Source: Roseburia sp.
GTDB taxonomy: Bacteria > Bacillota > Clostridia > Lachnospirales > Lachnospiraceae
Direction: 5' to 3'
Assembly (NCBI GenBank): GCA_023664685.1
Contig: JAMPFC010000007.1
Coordinates: 1 to 55,388, forward strand
Length of the DNA: 55,388 nt
This document shows, piece by piece, positions 4,278 through 16,365 of the stretch; position 1 is the first letter of the stretch, and the number at the start of each line of letters is the position of its first letter. The notes under the pieces were generated by a model. It did not search any database. It had not been told where the DNA came from and saw only the letters and a program-made list of their open reading frames with translations. The translations under genes were made by a program, and so were the position numbers.

Positions 4278-5345
4278 TTATCTTTTTTCACTAGATAACA
4301 CGATTTCAATTATACCTTCAGAGGCACCCCGGGCAGTAAAAGTTACATTTGCTGCTTTTCGATAGCCTTCTGGCACAGATATTTCAATAACTTTATATGT
4401 TTTTCCAATAACATATTCTTCAAATTCAAACAAACTATACGTACTGTTTTTAGATGGAGAACTGCTTCTACATACCTCATTACCATTTTCATCTACAACC
4501 ATTATTGCCGAACCCGAAATACCTTCTCCAGTAGTATTATCAGTTCTTGTGATTCTTAATATTACATTCTCCGTTTTCCAGTTTTCTATAACCGATAAAG
4601 ATTTTGAACTAAAGATTGCAACCCATGTGTTAGTTTTTTCGCAATACGCAATCGCTCCACATTGCCAATGGCTATCTATCATATTTCCATAATGCCCAGA
4701 AGAATTTTTCCATGCTTCTATTGCGGATATTGGATAGGTTGAACCTTTATACAAATTTTCACCTTCTGGCGGATTACCTATACTTATTCCATATAAACAG
4801 AAATATTCATCTGCTCGCTCATCCATGTTATGATGATAATCAAACCCATCTTTACTACCTCGAAGAGATGCGAATCTCCACAGCTCCTCCGACCATTCCA
4901 ACTCCTTTTTCCCTACTTTTTTTCTTTCCTCATTTTGAAGTTCAAATGCCTCTTGGGCCTTCTGCTTTTCACTTCCCCCAATGTCTGTATTGAACCAAAG
5001 CGTACTCACCTTCATCTTCCCAGATGTCAGCTTTCTTTTTACTTTTACATTGATCATTACACTGCCAATCTTTTTTCCCGTAACTTTTACACAGTACTTT
5101 TTACCACCGTTTGCCTTTGCCACCCTCACATTAGCAACCGATTTATTACTGGTCTTTGCTGTTACTTTTTTTAACGTGCCTTTTCCTTTTTGTTTCTTTT
5201 TTATTGTATAAATCGTTTTAGTTTTTCCTTTCTGTATCTCTGGAGCAATCCGTATCGTTTTTGCATCACAGCTAACCGTTCCCATAAATGCCAACAGTGT
5301 TCCTGCCATCAATAAAAAGAATAAATTTTTGATCCGCCTTTTCAT
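4278..5345 (-). CDS. Secreted CAP-domain protein with Cna-B-like C-terminal domain
   Basis: This is a 355-residue exported protein. A signal peptide with hydrophobic stretch (FFLLMAGTLLAFMG) ends near residue 25. A lysine-rich region of about 90 residues follows. A CAP/SCP-PR1 domain then spans about 130-255 (ELQNEERKKVGKKEL, HHNMDE, GENLYKG, SGHYGNM, WVAIFSS). The last 90 residues look like a prealbumin-type Cna-B fold. CAP proteins of Clostridia are surface or secreted factors whose activity is mostly unknown. I start at 5345, eight bases after AGGAG, not at the upstream GTG that overlaps that site. It is element cargo, and its promoter shares sequence with the parA promoter. Confidence 0.85.
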   Translation of the reverse strand: MKRRIKNLFFLLMAGTLLAFMGTVSCDAKTIRIAPEIQKGKTKTIYTIKKKQKGKGTLKKVTAKTSNKSVANVRVAKANGGKKYCVKVTGKKIGSVMINVKVKRKLTSGKMKVSTLWFNTDIGGSEKQKAQEAFELQNEERKKVGKKELEWSEELWRFASLRGSKDGFDYHHNMDERADEYFCLYGISIGNPPEGENLYKGSTYPISAIEAWKNSSGHYGNMIDSHWQCGAIAYCEKTNTWVAIFSSKSLSVIENWKTENVILRITRTDNTTGEGISGSAIMVVDENGNEVCRSSSPSKNSTYSLFEFEEYVIGKTYKVIEISVPEGYRKAANVTFTARGASEGIIEIVLSSEKR

Positions 5346-5377
5346 CTCAATCACTCCTTTACTTATATTATATAACT

Positions 5378-5414: not shown

Positions 5415-5434
5415 TGCCATCTTTTTTGACAAAT
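5415..5434. repeat. 20-base promoter-associated repeat, copy 1
   Basis: TGCCATCTTTTTTGACAAAT here is identical to 8855-8874. In both places it lies eight bases upstream of the -35 box, pointing to a shared regulator or a duplicated promoter region. Confidence 0.7.
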
Positions 5435-5617
5435 TGTCTCTTACATACATGTTGCAGAAGTTTAAACATTATAACATAATTTCTTAAAAGCTTATGTCGA
5501 ATCTTGTCGAAAAATATTGATTTTCTTTATCCTTAAATCATAGACATTTCACGATACTTTAAATAGCCTCTGAAAGAAAATCTTCCAGAGACTATAATAT
5601 CTGCCTTGTTATGTTAC

Positions 5618-5633
5618 AGGTCACAAATGACCT
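5618..5633. promoter_or_regulatory. Dispersed palindrome, site 1
   Basis: AGGTCACAAATGACCT is a perfect 6-bp inverted repeat overlapping the stop codon of the gene at 5632-5994. Its central four bases read CAAA on the plus strand, opposite to most of the other sites. Confidence 0.85.
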
Positions 5634-5994
5634 ACTCCCTTTTTTCGATATTGATCCCAGTGCTGTCCATGCTGATCAGCAGCGCACAGTAATCAAGCAT
5701 AGCTTGAAAGAACACCTGTGATATCCTGCATCCCTTTTCTTCCGCCACTTCTTCCAACTGCTTTTTCTGTCCGTCCTCGATATAAACAGTCAGTAGTGAT
5801 TTCCGCTCAATGTAGTCCGGATCGCTCCGCTGGGTAAGCAGTATCCGGGGATCTATCCTCTTCTCACCCTCCATAAAGTTCCGGATCGCCCGCCTTGTAA
5901 AAACAACCTTGCTGATCTCCTCTCTGTCCGAAAGGTAGTTGACCAGTTCAAAAACTTCTCCTGATACATAGCCTGAAAAAAGTTTTTTTGCCAT
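5632..5994 (-). CDS. Small basic DNA-binding-like protein, last gene of par operon
   Basis: This 120-residue soluble protein has no recognised name. The C-terminal third (ERKSLLTVYIEDGQKKQLEEVAEEKG and on) has the strand-helix-helix look of ribbon-helix-helix proteins. The middle is rich in charged residues. The start at 5994 follows GAGGT by six bases; the upstream ATG at 6000 is too close to it. It lies 25 bases behind parB, with palindromes at both its ends (sites 1 and 2). By position it could be an auxiliary partition or repressor protein that binds those palindromes. That function is inferred. Confidence 0.7.
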   Translation of the reverse strand: MAKKLFSGYVSGEVFELVNYLSDREEISKVVFTRRAIRNFMEGEKRIDPRILLTQRSDPDYIERKSLLTVYIEDGQKKQLEEVAEEKGCRISQVFFQAMLDYCALLISMDSTGINIEKRE

Positions 5995-6016
5995 AACCAT
6001 ACCTCATCTTTTCTGG

Positions 6017-6032
6017 AGGTCATTTGTGACCC
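6017..6032. promoter_or_regulatory. Dispersed palindrome, site 2
   Basis: AGGTCATTTGTGACCC lies at the parB 3' end. It contains the parB stop codon, so the last ParB residues GGHK are encoded by the palindrome. Confidence 0.85.
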
Positions 6033-7006
6033 CCTATCAAATTTTCTATCTGCCTTATATAAAAATGATATTTTTCTTCTGCTGATTCGTCAAGTAAAAT
6101 TTTACTTTCTTCCAGATCTTTTATGATCCCTGCGATATCTTCCTGAAACATTTCCGGCGTGAGCTGTCTTGTTTTGACAGAAGTCTTTTTATAATTCTTT
6201 ACGTCTCCAGAACGGATATTTGTATTTTCAGATGCTTTGGCAAGCTTCTCCTGCTCGTCCTTGTTCAGAGCTTCCACTGCTTTTTCAGCCACGCTTACGG
6301 AAACCTTATTATTCAAAAGGGCATCCTTCAGGGCATCACTCCCCTGCTTGTCCACTTTCTCATATTTGTTGATCTGTCCTCTGGATAACCCGGTAGTCTT
6401 AGTAAGGATATCCCTCGTCGTCTGCCCTTTGATCTGGATCCTGCTTTCTTCTCCATCCTCATCTGAACCATCAATATATTCAATCCCTTTTTCCCGGAGT
6501 TCCTCGATGATGCTCTTCCATTCTTGGATTTCGATATACATATCACCGTCTGTATATTTTCTTGCCTCTTTATTTGTGATGATGATCGCATATCTTTCCT
6601 TATTCTCTTCGGAGAGCGGCAGCTTGATCAGTTCCGTACCCTTCTCCACACATGGGATCAGGGTATCCTCCGTCCAGTCAGAAACTTCTTTGTCTGCGAT
6701 CAGCCGGTCAATGGCTGCCAGTCTGCGTTCTCCGCCCAAGAGCAGATACCTTCCATCCGGTTTCCTGCTCACATGCAATGGTTCTACCAGAGTAAAATCC
6801 CGAATCGAATTTGCTAGTGATGCAATTCCTTTGATACTGTATTTGTTGTTTGGGTTTTTATCGATCAGGGTTCTTGGAACTTGGATCGTCTTAGCAGCCA
6901 CTTGGTTCTTGGATACTTCTGAAAGCAGTCCCGCACCAACCTGCACTCCTCCTTCCGGCTTATTTTTCGCTGCTCCTTTTATTGAATCAACACTAAATTT
7001 TCCCAT
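6020..7006 (-). CDS. parB: ParB-family partition protein
   Basis: This 328-residue protein has the ParB/Spo0J N-terminal domain with LLLGGERRLAAIDRL (about residues 89-103), the box II nucleotide-binding motif. The usual third arginine of GERRxRA is an alanine here. A central HTH (about 197-222, TRDILTKTTGLSRGQINKYEKV) follows, then a variable C-terminal dimerisation region. It would bind a centromere site and work with ParA in segregating the circular form. It starts at the second in-frame ATG (7006), eight bases after AAAGGA. It is preceded by two palindromes 83 bases apart (sites 3 and 4), and its 3' end is inside site 2. Confidence 0.9.
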   Translation of the reverse strand: MGKFSVDSIKGAAKNKPEGGVQVGAGLLSEVSKNQVAAKTIQVPRTLIDKNPNNKYSIKGIASLANSIRDFTLVEPLHVSRKPDGRYLLLGGERRLAAIDRLIADKEVSDWTEDTLIPCVEKGTELIKLPLSEENKERYAIIITNKEARKYTDGDMYIEIQEWKSIIEELREKGIEYIDGSDEDGEESRIQIKGQTTRDILTKTTGLSRGQINKYEKVDKQGSDALKDALLNNKVSVSVAEKAVEALNKDEQEKLAKASENTNIRSGDVKNYKKTSVKTRQLTPEMFQEDIAGIIKDLEESKILLDESAEEKYHFYIRQIENLIGGHK

Positions 7007-7027
7007 GCTCATCTTCCTTTCTGTTAC

Positions 7028-7043
7028 AGGTCATTTGTGACCT
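7028..7043. promoter_or_regulatory. Dispersed palindrome, site 3
   Basis: AGGTCATTTGTGACCT, a perfect 6-bp inverted repeat, lies 22 bases upstream of the parB start. It is embedded in CTGTTACAGGTCATTTG, a context repeated at site 4. Confidence 0.87.
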
Positions 7044-7110
7044 CCTGCCTCTCTGTATCTTAGTTCTGCTTTTGGAAACCATATCAGATATTAAAAATGC
7101 TTTCTGTTAC

Positions 7111-7126
7111 AGGTCATTTGTGACCC
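7111..7126. promoter_or_regulatory. Dispersed palindrome, site 4
   Basis: AGGTCATTTGTGACCC lies just downstream of the VapD stop codon in the parB upstream gap. The preceding CTGTTAC is shared with site 3. Confidence 0.87.
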
Positions 7127-7133
7127 CTTCTGT

Positions 7134-7574
7134 TTACCGTTCAAAATTTATTCCTTTCGGTTTCGGTTTTCTGCCCGGTATTTTGTTTGCCTTTTTTTGT
7201 TTCTCAAAAATATCTCTTAAATCCGGTTCTTTCTCCAGTCCGTTCCGTGCCAGTTCTTCTACATCCTGAAGGATGCCGGTAAGGTCATGTTCTTCTGAAA
7301 TCCTTGCATAACTCATCTTATTCACGCAGTCTTTCAGCCACGGTTTTTCTTCCTGTATTCCCTTTACTGTACGGATCACATCCACCTCATCCTTCTCGCC
7401 GGCAGAATGATAGACAGACCCCTGCTCATGTTCATACCCTTGTTTCTCCATAAATGAGCGTATCTCATAATATGCATTTGTGTAATGATTCCCGCTCATC
7501 GGCTCATAGATGTCTTTTAGTGACTGCACATCCAGATCAAAGTAAACGGAAACCCTGCTTTGGCTTTTTTCCAC
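7134..7574 (-). CDS. VapD-like endoribonuclease toxin
   Basis: This 146-residue protein has a VapD/Cas2-like ferredoxin fold pattern: an N-terminal YFDLDV strand, the NAYYEIRSFMEKQGYEHEQGSVY helix-strand unit typical of VapD, then PWLKDCV. About 50 further C-terminal residues are lysine-rich. VapD proteins are mRNA-cleaving toxins, usually of plasmids and accessory islands. A GTG start (7574) lies seven bases after GAGGT, ten bases after the preceding small gene. The position inside the par cluster suggests post-segregational killing that stabilises the element. VapD family membership is well supported; toxicity is inferred. Confidence 0.82.
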   Translation of the reverse strand: MEKSQSRVSVYFDLDVQSLKDIYEPMSGNHYTNAYYEIRSFMEKQGYEHEQGSVYHSAGEKDEVDVIRTVKGIQEEKPWLKDCVNKMSYARISEEHDLTGILQDVEELARNGLEKEPDLRDIFEKQKKANKIPGRKPKPKGINFER

Positions 7575-7584
7575 TTATGATACC

Positions 7585-7893
7585 TCATTTCTGTTGTCTG
7601 GCATCCCATGCTAACTTACTGGCCTTTATATCTTCCCGCCTGCCATCCGTCTCGTCATCCATATACCATTCGCTTACCAGTTCAAAAAACCAGTCCGTTC
7701 TTTCCAGTGTGAGCATGGCAACGCCAAATGAAGCCAGTTCCTTTGATGAAGTGATCCCGGTATAACGCCCCTCTCCCGTCTTTATGATCTCCGGTCTGTT
7801 ATAAACACGATCCACAAGTGCCATCACCTTATCATAATCAAGGTTCTGTTCTTCGACCTTTTTCCGGTCTAATTTTATCGTAACTTTAAACAT
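7585..7893 (-). CDS. Small protein upstream of vapD, possible antitoxin
   Basis: This 102-residue acidic/mixed protein is not confidently assigned to a family. It begins MFKVTIKLDRKKVEE. The start at 7893 is chosen because AAAGGAG lies seven bases upstream, while the ATG at 7899 almost abuts it. It lies immediately before vapD (gap 10 bases) and after parA (site 5 lies between). The paired arrangement fits an antitoxin-toxin module, which is the only basis for the suggestion. Confidence 0.65.
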   Translation of the reverse strand: MFKVTIKLDRKKVEEQNLDYDKVMALVDRVYNRPEIIKTGEGRYTGITSSKELASFGVAMLTLERTDWFFELVSEWYMDDETDGRREDIKASKLAWDARQQK

Positions 7894-7909
7894 GGCCATT
7901 CTCCTTTGC

Positions 7910-8749
7910 TCAAGAGGTCATTTGTGACCCCTTCTGGTTTTGGTTTAAAATATATTCCGTAAGTTTTAAATAATCCTGCGTTACCCTGCTCTTCTTTGCT
8001 CCCTTATCATAAGCGAGAAGGGGTTTCTGGACAAGGCTGCTTTCCTCTACATTTTTACTCTGGCTGATCGTGACAGGAATGATATGACTGCCAAAGATCT
8101 CACTCAGCAATTCATAAACTGCCTTTGATACATTTTTCCTTCCGTTCCACTGGGTAAAAAACATCCCGCCGATCTTCAGCCCGGCATCGTATTCCGATAC
8201 GGTTTCAAACAGATTCATGATGATGGAGGCCCCTAAAAGACTTCCCCCATCGCATCTCAATGGCACATAAACTTCATCCGATGCCACCAGTCCATTGATA
8301 TTGGTAATGGATATGGAGGGGCTGCTATCTATTATACAATAATCATACTCTTCCTGTACAGCCCCTAAATGTTTTTTTAACCGGAACTGCTGCGGGGATG
8401 TCACATCCGCTTTCATTCTCTCCTCCGCCTCTGATAAAGTTAGAAAACTTGGGATAATATCAAGATGCTCATATTCCGTATGCCGGATGCATTCATGTAT
8501 ATCCAGTTCCCGGTCTAGCAGAAGATCCTCCACGGATTTCTGTCTTTTTGCGCAGGTTCCCTGATAAATGCTGTTGAAGAGTTCGATAAAATCCACCTCA
8601 CTGAACATGCAGGTACTGTTCATCTGTGGATCCAGATCGATCAGCAGTACCTTTTTGTCATGCACTGCTGCAAGCATATGTGCCACTGTTGTCACACTGG
8701 CTGTCTTTCCAACACCGCCTTTGTTGTTTAAAAATAAGATTGTTTTCAT
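7910..8749 (-). CDS. parA: ParA-family partition ATPase
   Basis: This 279-residue protein has the deviant Walker A NNKGGVGKTASVTTVAHML at residues 8-26, motif A' (VLLIDLDPQMNSTC) and the switch II-like CIIDSSPSIS. There is no N-terminal HTH, so it is the short type Ib/soj-like form. It moves ParB-bound DNA by ATP-dependent nucleoid binding. AAAGGAG stands eight bases before the start. It has its own promoter (8818-8846), with a palindrome between promoter and start, suggesting autoregulation. Its last codons (GSQMTS) are encoded by site 5. Confidence 0.93.
   Translation of the reverse strand: MKTILFLNNKGGVGKTASVTTVAHMLAAVHDKKVLLIDLDPQMNSTCMFSEVDFIELFNSIYQGTCAKRQKSVEDLLLDRELDIHECIRHTEYEHLDIIPSFLTLSEAEERMKADVTSPQQFRLKKHLGAVQEEYDYCIIDSSPSISITNINGLVASDEVYVPLRCDGGSLLGASIIMNLFETVSEYDAGLKIGGMFFTQWNGRKNVSKAVYELLSEIFGSHIIPVTISQSKNVEESSLVQKPLLAYDKGAKKSRVTQDYLKLTEYILNQNQKGSQMTS
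7915..7930. promoter_or_regulatory. Dispersed palindrome, site 5
   Basis: AGGTCATTTGTGACCC lies within the last codons of parA and 22 bases upstream of the next gene start. Confidence 0.85.
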
Positions 8750-8782
8750 TTGTCTGCTCCTTTCTATCTGGAAAATCTAAAG

Positions 8783-8798
8783 AGGTCACAAATGACCC
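8783..8798. promoter_or_regulatory. Dispersed palindrome, site 6 (parA operator candidate)
   Basis: AGGTCACAAATGACCC lies between the parA -10 box and start codon, at a position expected for a repressor near the transcription start. Its centre is in the reverse orientation, as in site 1. Confidence 0.87.
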
Positions 8799-8817
8799 CT
8801 TTTTATTGTATGTAATA

Positions 8818-8846
8818 ATTATATAACTATTATATAATAAAGTCAA
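8818..8846 (-). promoter_or_regulatory. parA operon promoter
   Basis: On the minus strand TTGACT (8841-8846), a 17-base spacer and TATAAT (8818-8823) precede parA. An 18-base AT-rich stretch here (8819-8836) is identical to 5368-5385 at the CAP promoter. Confidence 0.72.
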
Positions 8847-8854
8847 TACAAAAT

Positions 8855-8874
8855 TGCCATCTTTTTTGACAAAT
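8855..8874. repeat. 20-base promoter-associated repeat, copy 2
   Basis: TGCCATCTTTTTTGACAAAT is identical to 5415-5434 and likewise eight bases upstream of the -35 box. Confidence 0.7.
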
Positions 8875-8887
8875 ATCCGGCCGGAAT

Positions 8888-10144
8888 TTACAGGTCATTC
8901 GTGACCCCCTTTTCAGCATCTGCCCCATACTGCATCATCCGCTCATGTTCCTGTTCATTTCTTGCCTTTTCCCATTCTGATTTCAAACCTTTCCGCATGC
9001 GGTTGATCGCCGATGCCAGCGACACTCCGCCCGCCACCTGCTTTGTATATTCCCGACTGCTTTTCCCAGCAGCAGCCTCCCTCTGTTCTGTATCATAATT
9101 CCGTATCTCTTTCAGTATTGCATTACCGAGCCTTGTGTACAGATCCTGCATCTTTCCCTCTTCATAACTTCTCCCGGTGGTTCCGTATGCTTCCTGATAT
9201 TTCTGATCCTGTACCCTGATCCGTTCTTTGAACTCCTCAAACTCCTTGCTATGATACTGGTTCAGGTAATGCGTACTCAGGTTATCTATATCACTTTTGA
9301 CAGATGCCATAATGGGATTGTTATAGTTCCACATATTGCGGCTGCAGTCCGGCATCTTCTGATAAAGTTTGATAAATTCATGTTTCAGTTTCCGGTCACT
9401 GGAAAGAGGATGTTTTTGTTTCTGTTCCAGAATGCTCCCCCGGATGATACGGTTGATCTGTTGGTTATTTTCCTTCTCGTGCAATATCTGGTTTACGATG
9501 CTCTTCCTGCATCCGTTGATACTCGACTGACGGAAACGCCCCTTATATTCTTCTTTCTTTATCACATTTCCTGAACCGTCCCTTTGAGGTTCATGGATCC
9601 TTTTCCCATCCACCACATGATACCGGTACTGGATATATTCCCTCCTCTCCCGCATCGGTTCCGGCTCTACGGTTGCTACATGCACATGGATATTATCGGT
9701 ATTGTAGTGGATCGCCCCGCTCCACACTGCATTCTCCAGTCCTTCAGATTTCAGCATTCCATTTATAGCATTTCTGGTGATGGACTTCATGCTTTCTTCA
9801 TCCAGTATCTGATTCTCTGCATCATATAAACCGTTCTTTTCAAGCCACCGGTTGTCAAAAGAAATCACTGTCTGCCACATGAGCGAACCATTTTCCTGTG
9901 CTTTTTCAAAAACACGTTTGAGCTGCAGCTTATCTGTCTCGGTAAGTTCATCTTTTCCATAAGTAAAAAGCCCGGTCGTCTTATCCGGATTTCCCATATA
10001 ATCCTGATACAGATTATACTTGCTGCTGTTTTCTGTCCGGGCAGCTTCTTTTCTGTCAATGTAATTAATGTAGGAAGTGAATCTGCCGGAACCTGCCCCG
10101 CAGAATTTCGTCACGACCACCACTCCTGCTTTGATATTTCCCAT
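8888..10144 (-). CDS. MobP-type relaxase (MobP2/MobL-like)
   Basis: This 418-residue protein is the DNA-nicking enzyme of conjugation. It begins with a strand VVVVTKFCGAGSGRFTSYINYIDR, whose tyrosines near residues 25-28 are candidates for the nucleophile. It has the metal-binding histidine motif in HYNTDNIHVHVATVEPEP (His146, His153, His155). The C-terminal half is charged and helical, with no helicase domain. This is the short MobP2-like form common in Firmicutes elements. AAAGGA lies seven bases before the ATG. It follows three small DNA-binding genes, a typical relaxosome operon. The last residues (GVTNDL) are encoded by palindrome site 7. Confidence 0.9.
   Translation of the reverse strand: MGNIKAGVVVVTKFCGAGSGRFTSYINYIDRKEAARTENSSKYNLYQDYMGNPDKTTGLFTYGKDELTETDKLQLKRVFEKAQENGSLMWQTVISFDNRWLEKNGLYDAENQILDEESMKSITRNAINGMLKSEGLENAVWSGAIHYNTDNIHVHVATVEPEPMRERREYIQYRYHVVDGKRIHEPQRDGSGNVIKKEEYKGRFRQSSINGCRKSIVNQILHEKENNQQINRIIRGSILEQKQKHPLSSDRKLKHEFIKLYQKMPDCSRNMWNYNNPIMASVKSDIDNLSTHYLNQYHSKEFEEFKERIRVQDQKYQEAYGTTGRSYEEGKMQDLYTRLGNAILKEIRNYDTEQREAAAGKSSREYTKQVAGGVSLASAINRMRKGLKSEWEKARNEQEHERMMQYGADAEKGVTNDL
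8892..8907. promoter_or_regulatory. Dispersed palindrome, site 7
   Basis: AGGTCATTCGTGACCC has conserved arms but a changed centre (TTCG). It lies inside the relaxase 3' end, upstream of the parA promoter region. Confidence 0.82.
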
Positions 10145-10168
10145 ATGGTTTTCCTTTCAAAAAACAGG

Positions 10169-10184
10169 AGGTCATTTGTGACCC
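10169..10184. promoter_or_regulatory. Dispersed palindrome, site 8
   Basis: AGGTCATTTGTGACCC lies 24 bases upstream of the relaxase start, between it and the preceding small gene. Confidence 0.87.
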
Positions 10185-10206
10185 CCTGCTTTTTATCTGC
10201 AATCAT

Positions 10207-10467
10207 TCAGGGGTCACGTGTGACCCCCGTGATCTTTTCCAATAAGATTGAGTTGCTTTCTATCACATCATTTGCCTGTTCCAGTCTTTGCGCCAGTACA
10301 CTTATCAGGTTGGCATACCGGCTGTCCAGTTCTTCAACATCCTGCACCGTAGCGTATCTGGACAGACACCTCAAAAGATACTGGTTCCGGCTCATATAAT
10401 GTTTTTTCGCCAGTTCGTCGATCTTTTTTACAATGACCGGATCCACATTTCTAATTTTTATTTCCAT
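10207..10467 (-). CDS. Ribbon-helix-helix-like mobilisation accessory protein
   Basis: This 86-residue protein starts MEIKIRNVDPVIVKKIDELAKKHYMSRNQYLLRCLSRYA, a strand followed by two helices typical of Arc/CopG/MobC-like DNA-binding proteins. A predicted helical tail follows. It overlaps the upstream gene by 17 bases, so translation is coupled, and it lies directly before the relaxase. It is probably a relaxosome component or autoregulator. Its last residues (GVTRDP) are encoded by palindrome site 9. Confidence 0.78.
   Translation of the reverse strand: MEIKIRNVDPVIVKKIDELAKKHYMSRNQYLLRCLSRYATVQDVEELDSRYANLISVLAQRLEQANDVIESNSILLEKITGVTRDP
10210..10227. promoter_or_regulatory. Dispersed palindrome, site 9 (variant)
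   Basis: GGGGTCACGTGTGACCCC is a perfect 7-bp inverted repeat with the arms of the family and a CGTG centre. It lies inside the 3' end of the gene at 10207-10467, 25 bases from site 8. Confidence 0.8.
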
Positions 10468-10675
10468 TCCTCGTCATTCTCCCCCGGCTGCCAGCTTTCT
10501 TATATTTTCTATCAAACTCTTCCCATACTGCTCTGGCGATACTTTTCTCCCTGCCTTCACTCTCCTGCCGGATCAGGGATGTGATCGCCTGACTGTCACT
10601 TTTTAAACCATTCTTTTCCCGGTATTCCCTTAACAGAAATAAATCTTCGTCTGTAATACTGATACATTTTTGCAT
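10451..10675 (-). CDS. Small mobilisation protein, paralogue of the 10819-11214 gene
   Basis: This 74-residue protein begins MQKCISITDEDLFLLREYRE. The start at 10675 has AAGGGAG eight bases upstream; the longer open frame to 10789 would read through palindrome site 10. Its N-terminal 35 residues align with the protein at 10819-11214 (MRKCFSLSEEDLALLEQYKK, then NDSQAV versus SDSQAI), so the two are diverged duplicates. The predicted fold is a short helical DNA-binding unit. The role in the relaxosome is inferred from position. Confidence 0.72.
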   Translation of the reverse strand: MQKCISITDEDLFLLREYREKNGLKSDSQAITSLIRQESEGREKSIARAVWEEFDRKYKKAGSRGRMTRNGNKN

Positions 10676-10698
10676 GTTATCCGCTCCCTTTTTCAAAG

Positions 10699-10714
10699 AG
10701 GTCATTTGTGACCC
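10699..10714. promoter_or_regulatory. Dispersed palindrome, site 10
   Basis: AGGTCATTTGTGACCC lies 23 bases upstream of the start of the 74-residue gene. Confidence 0.87.
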
Positions 10715-10802
10715 CTTCTGATTTTTACAAAAAACACACTCCACAGGCTGCAAATCCCGCACTGGATTCTGCATGGCCTGTAACACCATCTCCCATAGCA
10801 GG

Positions 10803-10818
10803 AGGTCATTTGTGACCC
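10803..10818. promoter_or_regulatory. Dispersed palindrome, site 11
   Basis: AGGTCATTTGTGACCC immediately follows the stop codon of the first gene of the mobilisation operon. Confidence 0.87.
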
Positions 10819-11214
10819 CTAAGTATTTTCCTTGCTTTTTCGCTCATCACTCTTCTGCTTGAAGTATGCAATTTTTTCTTTGATACGGTCTTGGCTTTGC
10901 TTTACAACTGGATGAGCTGCCATCTCCACTGGAATACATGCATCTGCTTTCAGCATATGCAGCAGCGTATTTACCGCATCCAATATCACAATACTGTTCT
11001 GCTCCGCTGTCTTGGTCGCCCACCGGATCCGTTCTTTGGGAAGATAGTTCTTTTCCAGTTCTTCACGGATAACGATGGCAAGCTGCTCCCGGTTATTCTG
11101 GTTCTGACGTAAAAGCAATGAAACCGCCTGACTGTCATTTCTAATGCTGTTTTCCTTTTTATACTGCTCCAACAATGCCAGATCTTCTTCGGATAAGCTG
11201 AAACATTTCCGCAT
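10819..11214 (-). CDS. Mobilisation operon first gene, putative relaxosome/regulatory protein
   Basis: This 131-residue protein begins MRKCFSLSEEDLALLEQYKKENSIRND. The start at 11214 follows AAAGGTG by seven bases; the open frame continues upstream but has no ribosome site. The N-terminal segment is paralogous to the 74-residue gene downstream. The rest is helical, with an alanine/glutamine-rich middle and a lysine-rich tail. It is the first gene after a strong promoter and borders the oriT candidate, as MobC-like nick-accessory proteins often do. No family name is assigned. Confidence 0.7.
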   Translation of the reverse strand: MRKCFSLSEEDLALLEQYKKENSIRNDSQAVSLLLRQNQNNREQLAIVIREELEKNYLPKERIRWATKTAEQNSIVILDAVNTLLHMLKADACIPVEMAAHPVVKQSQDRIKEKIAYFKQKSDERKSKENT

Positions 11215-11245
11215 AACATCACACCTTTTTGTTTGTACTATATTT

Positions 11246-11274
11246 ACTATATAATATGTTGCGATTTTTTTCAA
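11246..11274 (-). promoter_or_regulatory. Mobilisation operon promoter
   Basis: On the minus strand TTGAAA (11269-11274), a 17-base spacer and TATAGT (11246-11251) precede the gene starting at 11214. Confidence 0.7.
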
Positions 11275-11369
11275 GTAATTTTATTCATTTTTATTACTTT
11301 CTGCCTTTTTTCCTCCATTTTTGTTATTCTTTTTTATTCCATCCGCTTATTTTATGTCCCCATGAAAAC

Positions 11370-11473
11370 GTTAGGCTTTGCCTAACCCCCACAGCCTTGT
11401 GGGGTCAGATTTCCCTTATGCTCTTTTTCAATTTTTCTCAGGCGGTTGGTTTCCCAACTGAAAAAAATTGAAA
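11370..11473. other. Hairpin cluster, candidate oriT
   Basis: Three consecutive inverted repeats lie here: GTTAGGC-TTT-GCCTAAC (11370-11386), CCCCACA-GCCT-TGTGGGG (11387-11404), and a long imperfect hairpin (11426-11473). In the last, TTTCAATTTTT pairs with AAAAATTGAAA and an inner GTTGG pairs with CCAAC. The region is non-coding and sits between the relaxosome operon and the oppositely oriented kinase gene. Hairpins next to the operon of the relaxase are the usual look of an oriT; no nic site can be read out. Confidence 0.55.
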
Positions 11474-11564
11474 CTAAGCAGCAGAACTGTGGGGCTTGTG
11501 CGATAACCGGAATGTTTTTGGATCTGTGGGTAAGTTGGTGGCAGCTTAGGTTTTCAAGTTGTCA

Positions 11565-11604
11565 CTGGCTTATCCATATATCCAAGCCAGTTATCCATCA
11601 AATC
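11565..11604. other. Inverted repeat with DnaA-box-like repeats
   Basis: CTGGCTT (11565-11571) pairs with AAGCCAG (11584-11590) around a 12-base loop. TTATCCAT occurs twice in direct orientation (about 11570 and 11591), one or two bases away from the DnaA-box consensus. It could belong to oriT or to a replication origin. The remainder of 11275-11741 shows no gene. Confidence 0.4.
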
Positions 11605-11741
11605 CACGGTTATGGTTTTGGATCAAGAATGATCTTAGGCATTTAGTATAACTGTTGCCGACCAGTAAAAGAAAAAAATATTTACATCTCATTTCTATCA
11701 TAGTACAATAAATTTACACTAAAATGCTAGGAGATGATTTT

Positions 11742-13148
11742 ATGAATTTATCAAGATGTGAAAAGGGTCATTTTTATGATAAAGAAAAGTTCCCAACATG
11801 TCCACATTGCAATCCACATTACAGTTTAAAACCTGAAGTGCAATTAAACAAAAAATATACCATTATTGAAACTATTGGTCATGGTGCAACTTCTATTGTA
11901 TACAAGGCAACAGATAGTAAAGGACATATATTTGCAATTAAAGAATTATTTTTAAGGGAAAATTTAAGAAGTAGCACTAGTAATGATATAGTTGTATATA
12001 ACGATGATGATTTTCAAATTGCGAAAAAGCATCGTATAAGCGAAATTGAAAAATACAAATTACTGAACGAAACAAATGCCACTCCAAAAATATATGATAT
12101 ATTTGAAGAAAATAATACTATTTACTGTGTAATGGATTATTTAACAGGATATTCTTTAGGTGCATTGTTACATGAATTTGAGCAAAAATTTGACCATGAT
12201 TTGAAAATGAATATAATTTATTGTGTCCTATATAACTTAAAAAAAGTTCATGACAAAAATATTCTTATATTAGACATTGCCCCAAATAATATTTTTATTA
12301 AAGCGGATGGCAATATTGTATTTTGTGATTTGGGAAATATGTACGTTGAAAAGAACGATACTGAAAAAAAATATGAAGCCTCTATCACAGTGTCGACAAA
12401 ATTTGCCCCGCCAGAATTATATAATGCACGAAAAGAAATTGGTACATATAGTGATGTCTATGCTATAGCTTCAGTGATTTATACTATTCTATTTGAAATC
12501 GAGCCAACAGATAGTATTACGAGATTGATTTCCTCCAAAGATATTTTTGAATTTAATGACATTGAATATAATATTAAAAATGCATTACAACATGCTTTGG
12601 AACTTAATATACGTTCAAGAACTCAAACTATTGATATCTTTATCGCTGAATTATTTGGATATAATCCAAATACATTACCAACCCCAAAACACAAATCCAT
12701 CTCTTCTTTTATAAGACCATTTACAACGGACAATAAAAAATTTAAATTCTCATCCTCTACCCAACCATCTATTATGCCTTCAGCAACTTCTTCATTTAAT
12801 TCATCTAACTCAACTTCTATATTTTACGAAATAGGAATTGATCCTGATGATGTAGAAAAGGTAGATATAAGTGAAATTCCAAAAGAAACACAATCTTATA
12901 AAATGCTTATGAATCAGTTTAAAGCTGTCAGTCAAAAGTACGATGAAAGTTGTTCAAAAGTTACTGAACTTGAAAAAAAGTTGGAAGACAAAAAAAATTC
13001 AACAGTAATGATGACCATAGGTGAAATTGTTTTATCGCTAGGAACAATTTTTATCCATGATTTATCACCTCAATCAATAATAACAGTTCTTGCTGGTATT
13101 TTAATTACTGTTTATGCATTGTATTTAAACTTCCGAGATAAAGCATAA
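11742..13148 (+). CDS. Zinc-ribbon Ser/Thr protein kinase, membrane-anchored
   Basis: This 468-residue protein is on the opposite strand to the rest of the element. An N-terminal zinc ribbon (CEKGHF and CPHC) is followed by a Hanks-type kinase domain at about 35-310. It has glycine loop IGHGATSIVYKA, Lys67 in FAIKE, a catalytic loop LILDIAPNN (Asp178, Asn183, with His-Arg of HRD missing), DLG at 196 and an APPE-type motif. A Ser/Thr-rich linker, a coiled coil and a C-terminal membrane hairpin follow. The start has AGGAG eight bases upstream. Base composition is far more AT-rich than its neighbours, so it was probably acquired separately. Function is unknown; a cargo role in phage or stress response is only a guess. 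Confidence 0.83.
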   Translation: MNLSRCEKGHFYDKEKFPTCPHCNPHYSLKPEVQLNKKYTIIETIGHGATSIVYKATDSKGHIFAIKELFLRENLRSSTSNDIVVYNDDDFQIAKKHRISEIEKYKLLNETNATPKIYDIFEENNTIYCVMDYLTGYSLGALLHEFEQKFDHDLKMNIIYCVLYNLKKVHDKNILILDIAPNNIFIKADGNIVFCDLGNMYVEKNDTEKKYEASITVSTKFAPPELYNARKEIGTYSDVYAIASVIYTILFEIEPTDSITRLISSKDIFEFNDIEYNIKNALQHALELNIRSRTQTIDIFIAELFGYNPNTLPTPKHKSISSFIRPFTTDNKKFKFSSSTQPSIMPSATSSFNSSNSTSIFYEIGIDPDDVEKVDISEIPKETQSYKMLMNQFKAVSQKYDESCSKVTELEKKLEDKKNSTVMMTIGEIVLSLGTIFIHDLSPQSIITVLAGILITVYALYLNFRDKA

Positions 13149-13484
13149 CTCACTATAACAAACCTATCACACCTAATTGATGAGTATATTATTTTTTATA
13201 CCTCTATTTCTTAGTATCACTTTTTTCTTTTTTACCGTCCTTCTCATCCCATGACCTCTTTCCCCCCCTTCAGAAAAGTCCTCTTTTCAGCTCCAACAAA
13301 TTAAAACTCCCTACGCAAGTCTCCAAGATTTCTCTCCCCATCACTGGCACGTTCCACACGTGCATCCCAGACAAAGAAGTTATTTAATAAAAGAGTGAAT
13401 ATAATAAAAAGGATAAATATGCTCTCCACACAAAAAACTCTTTTCCACCCGAAAAACCGCCAACTTTGCGTATCACAAGCCGGA

Positions 13485-13597
13485 AAATATTTAGACTTCT
13501 TTTTCCATTTTTTACCTTAAAAATAGACTGCCTTTCCGGTAAAAGGAAAAAATTTAGACTTTCTTTCCTATTTTTTGCCTCTTTTTTAGACTTCCAT
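13485..13597. repeat. Four iteron-like repeats (TAGACT core, 31-32 bp period)
   Basis: TAGACT occurs at 13492, 13524, 13555 and 13587, i.e. at intervals of 32, 31 and 32 bases. Flanks are similar: an AT-rich run before, TTC or GCC after, and copies 1 and 3 share ATTTAGACTT with ATTTTTT and CC further on. Regular three-helical-turn spacing next to the probable Rep gene is what plasmid iterons look like. The surrounding 13149-13745 holds no convincing gene. Confidence 0.65.
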
Positions 13598-13608
13598 TGT
13601 CCAAAAAA

Positions 13609-13643
13609 ACCTTTCGATGGAAGTATTTTATCCATCAAAAGGT
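13609..13643. other. 12/13-bp hairpin beside the iterons
   Basis: ACCTTTCGATGGA (13609-13621) pairs with TCCATCAAAAGGT (13631-13643) with one mismatch and a nine-base loop. It lies between the iterons and the 3' end of the Rep gene. It may be a terminator for rep or a structural part of the origin. Confidence 0.5.
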
Positions 13644-13745
13644 CTTTGGCGGTTCCGGTACATCGCATATGGGAGGTAAGAATTGCCCGGATCCGTACAA
13701 TATTTTCATCTATGCAAACACAAAGAAACCTCTTTCCAGAGATTT

Positions 13746-14582
13746 TTAAATGTGCAGCATATTTCTTGTCAGCATATGTATATGTTTTGGGTTCAAGATG
13801 CGGTCTTTCGGCTGTTCTTTCTCCAGTGCAGCCTGCCGGATCGCAATCCTGAGAATCTCATAAATACTGTGTTTCTGTCTTTCTGCCTCTTTCCGGTATT
13901 GCTTGATCAGCCCTGCTGTATCCCCGATCTGTCCCTCGGATGCATTCCGGATCTTATTTCTTCGGCAGCATACCCGGATAAAGTTTTCATGTTCAAGAGC
14001 CTCTGTTCCTATACTCGCTACTGACTGAAAAACACTGTGCTTATATGTGATATAGTAAAGCCCATTCTTGATCCCTACAGAAAAGAAATCACGCAGGGAA
14101 TGGAGATAATACCGCACCATACGTTCCGTTACATGAAAAACAGAAGCAAATTTTTCGTAAAACATCCGGGTTCCAATCCGGTATGAACTGCTGTTTTCAT
14201 GGGTGATCTTCAGAAAATACATGAGCATGTACTTCTCTCTCGCCTTCAGGGATTGAAACTTTTTTGTGTGGAACACTTTGCGCTGAAGATTCACATATCC
14301 TTCTTGAAAAGCACCCTCGTAACTGAAATCATTATCCAGAATCGTAATGTCATAATCAATATCCGTTGCCCGGAATATCCGGATCAGCCCTTTTTTCTCC
14401 AATCCTCTCATCGAAGTGTAGAAACTCTGCTTACACATACCTGTATTCCTGACTACATCCTGATTATAAACTCCGGGAACAAAACCTTTAATATCCTGTT
14501 TTTTAGCAATATATATAAGAAAATCCATCTCTGTGGATGTCAGATTTGACATTTTCTCCAGTAAATGATATTTTATCCGCAT
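13746..14582 (-). CDS. Probable replication initiator (winged-helix type)
   Basis: This 278-residue protein begins MRIKYHLLEKMSNLTSTEMDFLIYIA. A winged-helix unit follows (YNQDVVRNTGMCKQSFYTSMRGLEKKGLIRI, about residues 41-75). A second HTH-like segment lies around 142-170 (FASVFHVTERMVRYYLHSLRDFF). Two winged helices plus a basic C-terminal half fit plasmid Rep proteins, and the iteron array lies immediately downstream. It starts at 14582 with AAAGGA six bases upstream. An AT-rich promoter-like sequence lies at about 14610-14660. A transcription regulator is the alternative. Confidence 0.6.
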   Translation of the reverse strand: MRIKYHLLEKMSNLTSTEMDFLIYIAKKQDIKGFVPGVYNQDVVRNTGMCKQSFYTSMRGLEKKGLIRIFRATDIDYDITILDNDFSYEGAFQEGYVNLQRKVFHTKKFQSLKAREKYMLMYFLKITHENSSSYRIGTRMFYEKFASVFHVTERMVRYYLHSLRDFFSVGIKNGLYYITYKHSVFQSVASIGTEALEHENFIRVCCRRNKIRNASEGQIGDTAGLIKQYRKEAERQKHSIYEILRIAIRQAALEKEQPKDRILNPKHIHMLTRNMLHI

Positions 14583-14696
14583 ATTTTTTCCTTTCGCTCT
14601 TGACAAATATAATTTTTGCTATATAATTATAAATGTATATTTTTTCAAAACTTGACTTAAATCGAGTAGAGGGGGCATCTTGCAGGGATGCCTTCT

Positions 14697-15446
14697 TTAC
14701 TTTGTGCTTTCATGTGCTGTATCTTCCCACTCTTTTTGCCCGGACAATACACTCTGAAGAAGCCTTCTCCTTGCACTGACCGATGAACATGTACTCAGCG
14801 TAAGTATCTTTTCACCGGTACTCAAAGAAATCCCCTGCCTTACATGTCCGTTCCCCGGCTCTGCAATGACCCTTTGGTACTCTCTTATCTGCTTTTCCTT
14901 TTGGAAAAATCCATAATGCTGAAGGATATTTCTGTTATCCGATTCATAATAAGATATGATCCGGTACGTAAGCCTCTCCTCTGGCGTAAAAATATACACC
15001 GTATCATGGTTCTCAAAAAATTGTCTGTCAGCAAATTTTTTTAATCCGGCAAACATCGAACCGTTTATCATATTATGTCCATATAAAACAGTAACAGGAT
15101 CACTGAAATCCCTTGCGTTTTCTTTCTGGCTGTATATCGTCCCAGCAAATTCATATGCCTTCCGGAAATTGTGGTTCAGATAGTAATCTTCTTTTTCTTT
15201 CCCCTGAACACTTACCACCGGATAATCGATCGGCGTTCCCGGCACCCGGATCCATGCATAGATATCCGGATTTATCCTTTGGAGTTTCTCAAAGTCGATG
15301 GGATTTTTCATTTCTTCCGTACTGTATTCTGTGCAGAAATCTTTTAAATCTCCTCCGTCTGATAGAAAGATAACTCCAAGCAGCAGTCCAGAACTGCAGA
15401 ACACCAAAAGACAAACCGCCAAAAGTACTTTCCGTATTTTTTTCAT
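14697..15446 (-). CDS. srtB: Class B sortase
   Basis: This 249-residue membrane-anchored transpeptidase has a signal anchor at residues 7-28. The sortase fold carries His124 (LYGHNM), catalytic Cys220 (LTLSTCSS) and an arginine cluster at 226-228. The long N-terminal helical part and the LSTC signature are class B features. It is the last gene of the transfer operon. The large adhesin of the same element ends in SPKTG followed by a membrane helix and a basic tail. SPKTG is a known substrate motif of clostridial class B sortases, so the adhesin is its likely substrate. Confidence 0.93.
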   Translation of the reverse strand: MKKIRKVLLAVCLLVFCSSGLLLGVIFLSDGGDLKDFCTEYSTEEMKNPIDFEKLQRINPDIYAWIRVPGTPIDYPVVSVQGKEKEDYYLNHNFRKAYEFAGTIYSQKENARDFSDPVTVLYGHNMINGSMFAGLKKFADRQFFENHDTVYIFTPEERLTYRIISYYESDNRNILQHYGFFQKEKQIREYQRVIAEPGNGHVRQGISLSTGEKILTLSTCSSVSARRRLLQSVLSGQKEWEDTAHESTK

Positions 15447-15465
15447 AACAAGACAGCACCCTCTT

Positions 15466-15774
15466 TCATATAAAAGGCAGAAAACGAACCAATTCCTGAT
15501 ACATGTTGTAGGTCTGGCGGAACAGTTCCATCCGGGATGCCGGATAAATCAGGGCAGCCAGTCCAGCAACCGATAAAAAGAAAATCAGTATATTGGCAGC
15601 GATCCGGATCACTCTGGCAAGTGTCCTTATTAAAAATTTAACAAGATTGCTCTTTTCAACAATGACAACATCCTCCTGATCCACTCCATATTTTTCTTTC
15701 AAAAGGAGCTGTTCTTTCTGCATTTCATTCTCTGCCCGGATCTGCTTTACGAGTTCTCCATTAAACTTTTTCAC
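15466..15774 (-). CDS. Small membrane protein of the transfer operon
   Basis: This 102-residue protein has a charged N-terminal half and one long hydrophobic segment (ILIFFLSVAGLAALIYPA, about residues 63-80), then a short tail. I start at the GTG 15774, ten bases after GAGG. This makes a 14-base overlap with the preceding gene, in keeping with the tight operon. It has no recognised family. It lies directly before the sortase gene. Confidence 0.65.
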   Translation of the reverse strand: MKKFNGELVKQIRAENEMQKEQLLLKEKYGVDQEDVVIVEKSNLVKFLIRTLARVIRIAANILIFFLSVAGLAALIYPASRMELFRQTYNMYQELVRFLPFI

Positions 15775-16354
15775 GTCTTTTATACCTCTCCCTCTCTTTT
15801 TTGGAAAATGTTTCTTCAAAATCCTTTTCGGAAGAATACCAGAAACAATAGGTGTCCTCACATGTGAAATAGTCTATGGCTTTCTGGAACCGCTCTATTT
15901 TGGATTCTGCATAATTTACTACGCTGTCGGCTTCAACCAACTTGCGGTATCTTCCCTTCTGCCCTCTCAGCATGGGAGAATATGTGACGTTCAGAAAACT
16001 ATTTTCACACAGGTAATGGACACTCTGCCGGCTTCTCTGAAAAAGGAATGCCACTTGCGGAATCGTAAGATACCCCTTTGTCGTCGTCTGGCTACCCCGG
16101 TAGCCGGACTGCCTCCAATACCTTTCCTGATCCACTGCTTCCCTCCATTCAACAACTCTCTGGTACTTCCCGATCTGCTTGTCCACATATTTTTTTAATT
16201 CTGATGATCTTATCAGTCTGCGGTGTTTCCCATCAACTGCCAAAAGTACACCAGTCATAATAAGTTTCTCGGTAGAAGATCTGGAACGTCCCAAAAGATA
16301 TGCAGCCTGCGGGACAATAAGCAGCTCATCCTCATGTCTCATTTCAACCATCAT
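15761..16354 (-). CDS. Tandem helix-turn-helix (excisionase-like) protein
   Basis: This 197-residue protein has two similar HTH units: LLIVPQAAYLLGRSRSSTEKLI near the start and LTIPQVAFLFQRSRQSVHYLC about 90 residues later. Each is followed by a segment ending in a lysine/arginine wing and a helix (KYVDKQIGKYQRVVEWREA versus NYAESKIERFQKAIDYFTC). This looks like an internal duplication of a MerR/Xis-like DNA-binding domain. The start at 16354 follows GAGGTG and lies 11 bases after the upstream stop. The role is unknown; it could regulate transfer or act as a directionality factor. Confidence 0.72.
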   Translation of the reverse strand: MMVEMRHEDELLIVPQAAYLLGRSRSSTEKLIMTGVLLAVDGKHRRLIRSSELKKYVDKQIGKYQRVVEWREAVDQERYWRQSGYRGSQTTTKGYLTIPQVAFLFQRSRQSVHYLCENSFLNVTYSPMLRGQKGRYRKLVEADSVVNYAESKIERFQKAIDYFTCEDTYCFWYSSEKDFEETFSKKERERYKRREKV

Positions 16355-16365
16355 AACCAAACACC

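Follow-up and report, generated by a model that had tools for sequence, protein, structure and literature searches.

The window analysed here, a stretch of 55,388 nucleotides from Roseburia sp. (contig JAMPFC010000007.1 of assembly GCA_023664685.1), carries an integrated conjugative element that encodes a MobP2 relaxase, a CD1115-type VirD4 protein, an ArdC-like polyvalent protein and a sortase, all on the minus strand, with chromosomal genes such as pheS lying outside it. One part of the element combines partition (par) and mobilization (mob) genes, and this par-mob block carries eleven copies of a short spaced palindrome, GGTCA-N4-TGACC, which span nine genes on one strand. Along the direction of transcription, these genes encode a 151-amino-acid (aa) protein, a small ribbon-helix-helix (RHH)-like protein, an 86-aa RHH-like protein, the relaxase, ParA, a 104-aa protein, a VapD-like protein, ParB and a 122-aa protein (Table 1). 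The palindromes are predicted to be the binding (loading) sites of the element's own ParB, forming a dispersed parS set, a reading to which we assign a probability of roughly 80%.

Judged by sequence, the block contains a ParB with a ParB_N domain and a GERR box, a ParA encoded nearby (two small genes separate parA from parB) and palindromic candidate parS sites near parAB that match the ParB. The match of this ParB to Pfam ParB_N (E = 2.6e-5, 24.6 bits) is slightly below the cut-off of 26.3 and that to TIGR00180 is also below its cut-off; matches to profiles of ParB/Noc structures in the PDB reach down to E = 5.8e-13. Canonical chromosomal parS is a 16-bp palindrome without a spacer (TGTTTCAC-GTGAAACA), from which the window sites depart in having a 7-N4-7 frame and different arms. 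The system is likely to be a dispersed parS-like set belonging to a ParABS module on a MobP2 conjugative element.

Table 1 Palindromes, genes and promoter of the par-mob block (positions in the window; palindromes given as the 14-bp core)
Feature	Position	Strand	Remarks
Palindrome 1	5619..5632		GGTCA-CAAA-TGACC on the plus strand; end of 122-aa gene
122-aa small protein gene	5632..6000	-	possible ParB partner
Palindrome 2	6018..6031		overlaps parB stop; before 122-aa gene; preceded by a 10/12 promoter match (6093-6065, minus)
parB	6020..7012	-	330 aa; ParB_N, GERR box (GGERR); recognition helix SRGQINKYE; proposed reader
Palindrome 3	7029..7042		immediately before parB start
Palindrome 4	7112..7125		between VapD-like gene and parB
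VapD-like protein gene	7134..7574	-	below family cut-off
104-aa block protein gene	7585..7899	-	no assigned function
parA	7910..8749	-	279 aa ATPase; AAA_31, E = 4.8e-42; KGGVGK at start; without N-terminal extension
Palindrome 5	7916..7929		parA 3' end
Palindrome 6	8784..8797		between promoter and start of parA; roughly +13 to +28 relative to the estimated start point
parA promoter	8818..8846	-	TTGACT-17-TATAAT; 11/12 match; best inside the block
MobP2/MobL relaxase gene	8888..10144	-	
Palindrome 7	8893..8906		centre TTCG; relaxase gene 3' end
Palindrome 8	10170..10183		before relaxase start
86-aa RHH-like protein gene	10207..10467	-	weak VapB and NikA-like matches, below cut-offs
Palindrome 9	10212..10225		centre CGTG; 86-aa gene 3' end; 42 bp from palindrome 8
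Small RHH-like protein gene	10451..10675	-	paralogue of the 151-aa protein
Palindrome 10	10700..10713		25 bp before likely start (10675) of small RHH-like gene
Palindrome 11	10804..10817		directly after 151-aa gene
151-aa protein gene	10819..11274	-	RHH-like by eye; no family match above cut-off

A palindrome recurring at gene borders

The eleven sites proposed by a first-pass annotation of this sequence were all found where it had placed them, between positions 5619 and 10817, and a whole-window count of none in the rest of the window bears out its remark that it had noticed none there. The arms, which it had called constant, are so in the core GGTCA-N4-TGACC, intact at all eleven sites. At the first arm base the constancy is one site short, since AGGTCA-N4-TGACC is exact in 10 of 11 copies and the one at 10210 (GGGGTCA-CGTG-TGACCCC) begins with G. 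The centres, read on the coding strand, are CAAA in seven copies, TTTG in two, and CGAA and CACG in one each; the two TTTG copies are palindromes 1 and 6, whose reversed centres had been correctly recognized.

In shuffles that kept dinucleotides, with any spacing from 0 to 12 and arms of at least three different letters, the most frequent 5-base arm had no more than 4 copies when the window was shuffled 60 times and no more than 2 when the block (5601-10850) was shuffled 300 times, against the 11 observed. The 3.0 Mb genome contains one further GGTCA-N4-TGACC, on contig C37 with the centre CATT, and the pattern read backwards occurs twice. Degenerate copies with up to three mismatches are not in clear excess (122 against 107.6 expected; 17 of 100 shuffles gave at least as many). 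None of the 298 other genomes of the family that were searched has the exact 16-base motif, nine viral contigs match it once each, and Rfam at gathering scores returned nothing in the window.

Mechanical calls of open reading frames (ORFs) put 10 of the 11 sites at gene junctions, compared with 20% of random positions, in agreement with the placement at gene ends or before starts that had been described. The eleventh (10700) falls inside the ORF 10451-10789, yet by our own reading it precedes the likely true start at 10675 by 25 bp.

Near relatives with the same or changed arms

A scan of genome contigs with the window ParB yielded four loci, L001 to L004, with ParB identities to the window of 83%, 91%, 57% and 53% over the best segment and with 7, 10, 2 and 8 copies of GGTCA-N4-TGACC, respectively. 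In L004 the 125-aa gene is preceded by a further, ninth copy that has one mismatch, and three of the L004 sites fall within the relaxase gene, in a 45-bp in-frame tandem repeat (4941-5048). Of the relaxase, L003 has by eye kept the tail alone, but parA, parB and the 122-aa gene are present; one of its two sites precedes parA and the other is at the parB end, and no homologue of the 86- or 151-aa protein was found in its 17 kb.

Profile searches added further near relatives, found in 3 of 397 genomes of the family and 4 of 392 of the order (own genome included). Among these, L028 combines a related gene set with eight copies of GGTGCTA-N4-TAGCACC, and L024 has three copies of GTGGAA-N4-TTCCAC on a 60 kb contig. 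A single CGTGTCA-N4-TGACACG in L023 and a single GGTGTCC-N4-GGACACC in L027 complete the set; these two loci have no recurrent palindrome and are informative through their single sites only. Across the near elements the arms thus differ between elements and are uniform within each, while the frame is constant, as expected of a reader co-evolving with its sites. A homologue of the 122-aa gene follows parB in all nine near loci, directly in eight and within about 1 kb in L028, whose homologue has a weak match to DUF6290 (E = 0.006, below cut-off). The relaxases of L004 and L024 share a long repetitive C-terminal extension of Sel1-like appearance. The ParB profile confirmed no relative on viral contigs, and no plasmid record matched the ParB of the window or of L028; MobP2 relatives are present in 1,069 plasmid records.

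The contig of L028 (region 5825-18956) is the plasmid G695:C3, which is 62,645 bp long, encodes a Rep_3 initiator, RelB/YoeB and a resolvase, and is probably circular because its first 100 bases recur near its end. It is related to the integrated element of the window in the par-mob block. The plasmid carries 12 GGTGCTA sites, ten in 7.6-22.5 kb and one each near 44.9 and 52.7 kb, all of them at junctions of genes that lie on both strands. Five of the 12 separate convergent ORFs, which argues against a purely translational or promoter role. At seven of the eight sites of L028, the sequences outside the arms vary yet stay self-complementary (one via a G-T pair), and 4 of 15 listed terminator-like sites contain the palindrome, so that some sites are probably also terminator stems on that plasmid.

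Palindromes at distant ParB loci

A wider ParB profile (A2) found relatives in 27 of 348 genomes of the family (E to 1e-15) and 18 of 392 of the order (E to 1e-20), counts that take in the own genome and those of the near group, and 39 further ParB loci were compared over stretches of about 7-20 kb. The pattern GTGTC-N7-GACAC occurs in 21 of them and has 34 sites in all, where equal base frequencies would give 0.63. At 18 loci a site is no more than 500 bp away from parB (22 sites), and at 15 loci parB itself contains one or more (17 sites). The pattern had been chosen on the first 26 loci, where it has 26 sites (reversed control, 1); among 13 loci fetched later it recurs in five, with 8 sites against 0.22 expected and none for the reversed control. 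None of the 39 stretches yielded a homologue of the relaxase or of the 122-, 86- or 151-aa protein, although such genes may lie farther off, which leaves ParB as the one among the block's candidates that is common to all loci.

Other palindromes were met in this set. Those of L061 and L062 (ATACTTAT) do not follow the GTGTC-N7-GACAC pattern and were set aside; they form clusters at 12102-12185 in L061 and 6539-6620 in L062, about 2-3 kb from other ParB genes, and are possibly another centromere type. L082 has, 6 kb from its ParB match, two copies of a palindrome that we take to resemble canonical parS, again a different pattern.

A recognition-helix residue varies with the arm

One residue of the ParB recognition helix tracks the sixth base of the GTGTC arm. 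In the 13 loci with Gln at this position and exact sites, the half-sites have A 29 times, T four times, G once and C never, A being the commonest base in 11 loci and tied with T in two; in the eight loci with Arg, all 34 half-sites of exact sites have C. This match was first noticed on the first 35 loci. Among loci added later, four of five with exact sites fit, as does L108 among those with imperfect sites, and in the near group L028 (Gln, arm ending in A) fits as well. On a ParB tree built without the helix columns from 46 of 48 rows (L081 and L082 left out), each trait changes four times among the 19 Gln/Arg loci whose base is clearly A or C, and four of four independent pairs agree. Co-variation in relatives had been named beforehand among the support to look for, and by this co-variation, reading of the sites by the element's ParB is well supported.

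A weak helix-turn-helix alignment to 4umk, counting from S172, places the varying residue at N178 of Caulobacter ParB. In PMC7383237, N178 is listed among the residues contacting parS, and ParB variants prefer A when position 173 is Gln and C when position 201 is Arg, which provides a precedent for the Gln-A and Arg-C pairing, at other positions.

Several observations weigh against ParB as the reader, or against the rule linking residue and base. The window's own helix has Lys with A and stands outside the Gln/Arg rule, and L024 contradicts it (Arg, with the arm GTGGAA ending in A), a locus that also encodes a second ParB-like protein. The loci with Glu (L064) and Thr (L077) are mixed, the Gln locus L072 is tied between A and T, L104 (Gln) half-fits with one T and one A half-site, and L107 (Arg) has an imperfect site with one A and one C half. 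Four independent pairs give p = 0.125 at best, short of p = 0.05. An exact site is lacking at 18 of the 39 distant loci, some of which have related imperfect or other palindromes, and L023 and L027 contribute a single site each. Junction placement in L004 is down to six of nine sites, and the site at the parA promoter is not conserved in L001. Lastly, the base pair outside the arms is biased on the coding strand, being G..T at 8 of 11 window sites and A..C at none (sign test, p = 0.008), and G..T at 18 and A..C at 1 of the 38 sites of all five GGTCA elements, which are not independent of one another. Strand-blind binding does not predict such a bias, which favours RNA pairing or descent from one oriented copy.

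Competing explanations

The outer-base bias, G..T but never A..C in the window, speaks for sites that work as mRNA hairpins, in intercistronic processing, translational control or termination, and the self-complementary flanks and terminator-like stems of L028 point the same way. The two reversed centres argue against it, as do the window stems themselves, which are mostly 5-7 bp long and have no coding-strand T-run except at palindrome 8 (10170), by eye the sole window site with an extended stem and such a run. A terminator scan classed 7 of 11 window sites as terminator-like, in each case on the strand that is opposite to the genes, and found a stem with a T-run at 0 of 11 on the minus (coding) strand. 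Because the arms also follow the ParB helix residue, the sites lie inside parB in 15 of the 39 distant loci and five of the plasmid sites fall between convergent ORFs, an explanation by mRNA hairpins is unlikely. A tandem repeat within the L004 relaxase gene, and the centre and orientation shared by several copies, would instead suit functionless small repeats, similar to repetitive extragenic palindromes, spread by copying. The core arms, however, are kept while flanks differ (by eye), arms change between elements and not within them, and junctions hold 12 of 12 plasmid and 10 of 11 window sites, though fewer in L004, which makes an origin of this kind very improbable.

The first-pass annotation had allowed for reading by one of the RHH-like proteins as well as by ParB. 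Palindromic operators are usual for such proteins, their genes lie within the block, and the 122-aa homologue keeps its place after parB in nine of nine near loci, so the sites could be operators of the 122-, 86- or 151-aa protein and not of ParB. These proteins are nevertheless the poorer candidates, with no homologue found in the 39 distant stretches of about 7-20 kb, of which 21 have palindromes. L003 retains its sites with no 86- or 151-aa homologue in its 17 kb, and segments of the 122-aa protein differ by eye between the window and L004 despite the same arms. We therefore consider an RHH operator quite unlikely.

Promoters, possible regulation and a proposed mechanism

ParB-family proteins load at a palindrome and slide as CTP clamps. 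A dimer of the window's ParB would read one palindrome arm with each recognition helix, load at each site as a CTP clamp and then spread, as ParB biology suggests. With 11 loading sites in 5.2 kb, the par-mob block would become one partition complex, which ParA would presumably move once the element is excised and circular. A partition (centromere) role, also part of the earlier proposal, is one that we infer from ParB/parS biology. Because of their border placement, most sites stay clear of coding sequence; this placement may also mark transcription boundaries. Given the outer-base bias and the L028 stems, the sites may have a second function, at the RNA level or as boundaries.

Palindrome 6 lies just downstream of the parA promoter, confirming the claim that one site separates this promoter from the gene start. 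The same placement is seen in L002; in L001 a promoter of the parA type precedes a different gene, with no site after it, and the preceding site has decayed by one base. Through palindrome 6, ParB could control parA, whose product has no N-terminal extension, and autoregulation is suggested, if less certainly. The SopB sites of N15 are likewise dispersed and have an operator role. Clamps loaded at the other borders might lower transcription within the block, in the manner of KorB on RK2, which is again less certain; control of other block genes is possible, in a direction that the sequence does not set. The broader claim that the sites silence the block fares less well, as one window site is at a promoter by an 11/12 match (parA), one (6018, before the 122-aa gene) follows a 10/12 match at 6093-6065, and the others are not clearly at promoters; the five plasmid sites between convergent ORFs would make little sense as promoter operators. 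Another promoter match, at 8360-8331, has no adjacent site.

A 17-bp element, TGCCATCTTTTTTGACA on the plus strand, occurs at 5415-5431 and 8855-8871 (two matches where 0.01 would be expected). The copies stand directly upstream of the -35 of two promoters, that of parA and that of a CAP/SpaA surface-protein gene, and L001 and L002 each have a single copy upstream of a promoter of this kind. The element is probably a second, separate regulator site. The surface-protein gene (4278-5354) encodes CAP and SpaA-type domains and has a consensus promoter; in L003 a CAP-like protein follows the 122-aa gene (by eye).

Elsewhere around the block, homologues of both the VapD-like protein and its 104-aa partner are encoded after parB in L023, whose parA is truncated. 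A protein kinase-like gene (11724-13148, plus strand) adjoins the block in the orientation opposite to its genes. Identical copies of a 15-mer, CACTCACATGTGACC, lie 531 bp apart (16850-16864 and 17381-17395) inside the ArdC-like polyvalent gene.

Discussion

Dispersed ParB sites that combine partition with regulation are an already known principle. The window system resembles KorB/OB of the IncP plasmid RK2 in its likely reader, a ParB-family protein, and in palindromes that are dispersed over genes for maintenance and transfer. KorB can reach promoters as far as 1.5 kb away by sliding, and it represses them once KorA has locked it (PMC11790492). The plasmid G695:C3, with 12 sites on 62.6 kb, is also alike in layout. 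Differences from RK2 KorB are the palindrome, the bacterial group, the integrated state of the element and the location of sites mostly off recognisable promoters. The N15 SopB centromere (IR1-4) similarly consists of several separate ParB palindromes and not of one array, but has four sites of unrelated sequence on a linear phage-plasmid (PMC7205306). In NAH7, parS repeats near partition and transfer genes couple both; there, ParB activates the transfer genes from parS, and the plasmids are proteobacterial (PMC12421886). Chromosomal ParB/parS and Noc/NBS share with the present group a similar palindrome length, a helix-turn-helix reader and few specificity residues; in contrast to these, the residue that varies with the site appears to be another one, the spacer is N4 in the near group or else N5, between arms of six bases, and the carrier is a mobile element (PMC7383237).

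A bolder, and unlikely, extension would make the system a KorB-like ParB network, used by a family of conjugative elements and plasmids, in which parS clamps at gene borders act as movable transcription boundaries, with the parS of L028 placed inside a terminator stem, the 122-aa protein serving as a clamp-locking partner and helix switches (Gln-A, Arg-C, Lys) giving rise to compatibility groups. Among the titles and abstract openings listed by searches of open-licence literature, none described these palindromes or the parS of this ParB group, and the palindrome sequences themselves matched no paper there. The family of elements, the sequences of its sites, their placement at borders and the naturally occurring residue-to-base switches appear to be new.

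The best-known cases in which control by ParB links inheritance with transfer are plasmids of proteobacteria, RK2 and NAH7 among them. The present comparison adds sequence evidence for a comparable layout on a conjugative element and a plasmid of another bacterial group. It names likely sites for several elements and yields a Gln-A/Arg-C rule that is directly testable and that would allow parS to be predicted for this ParB group.

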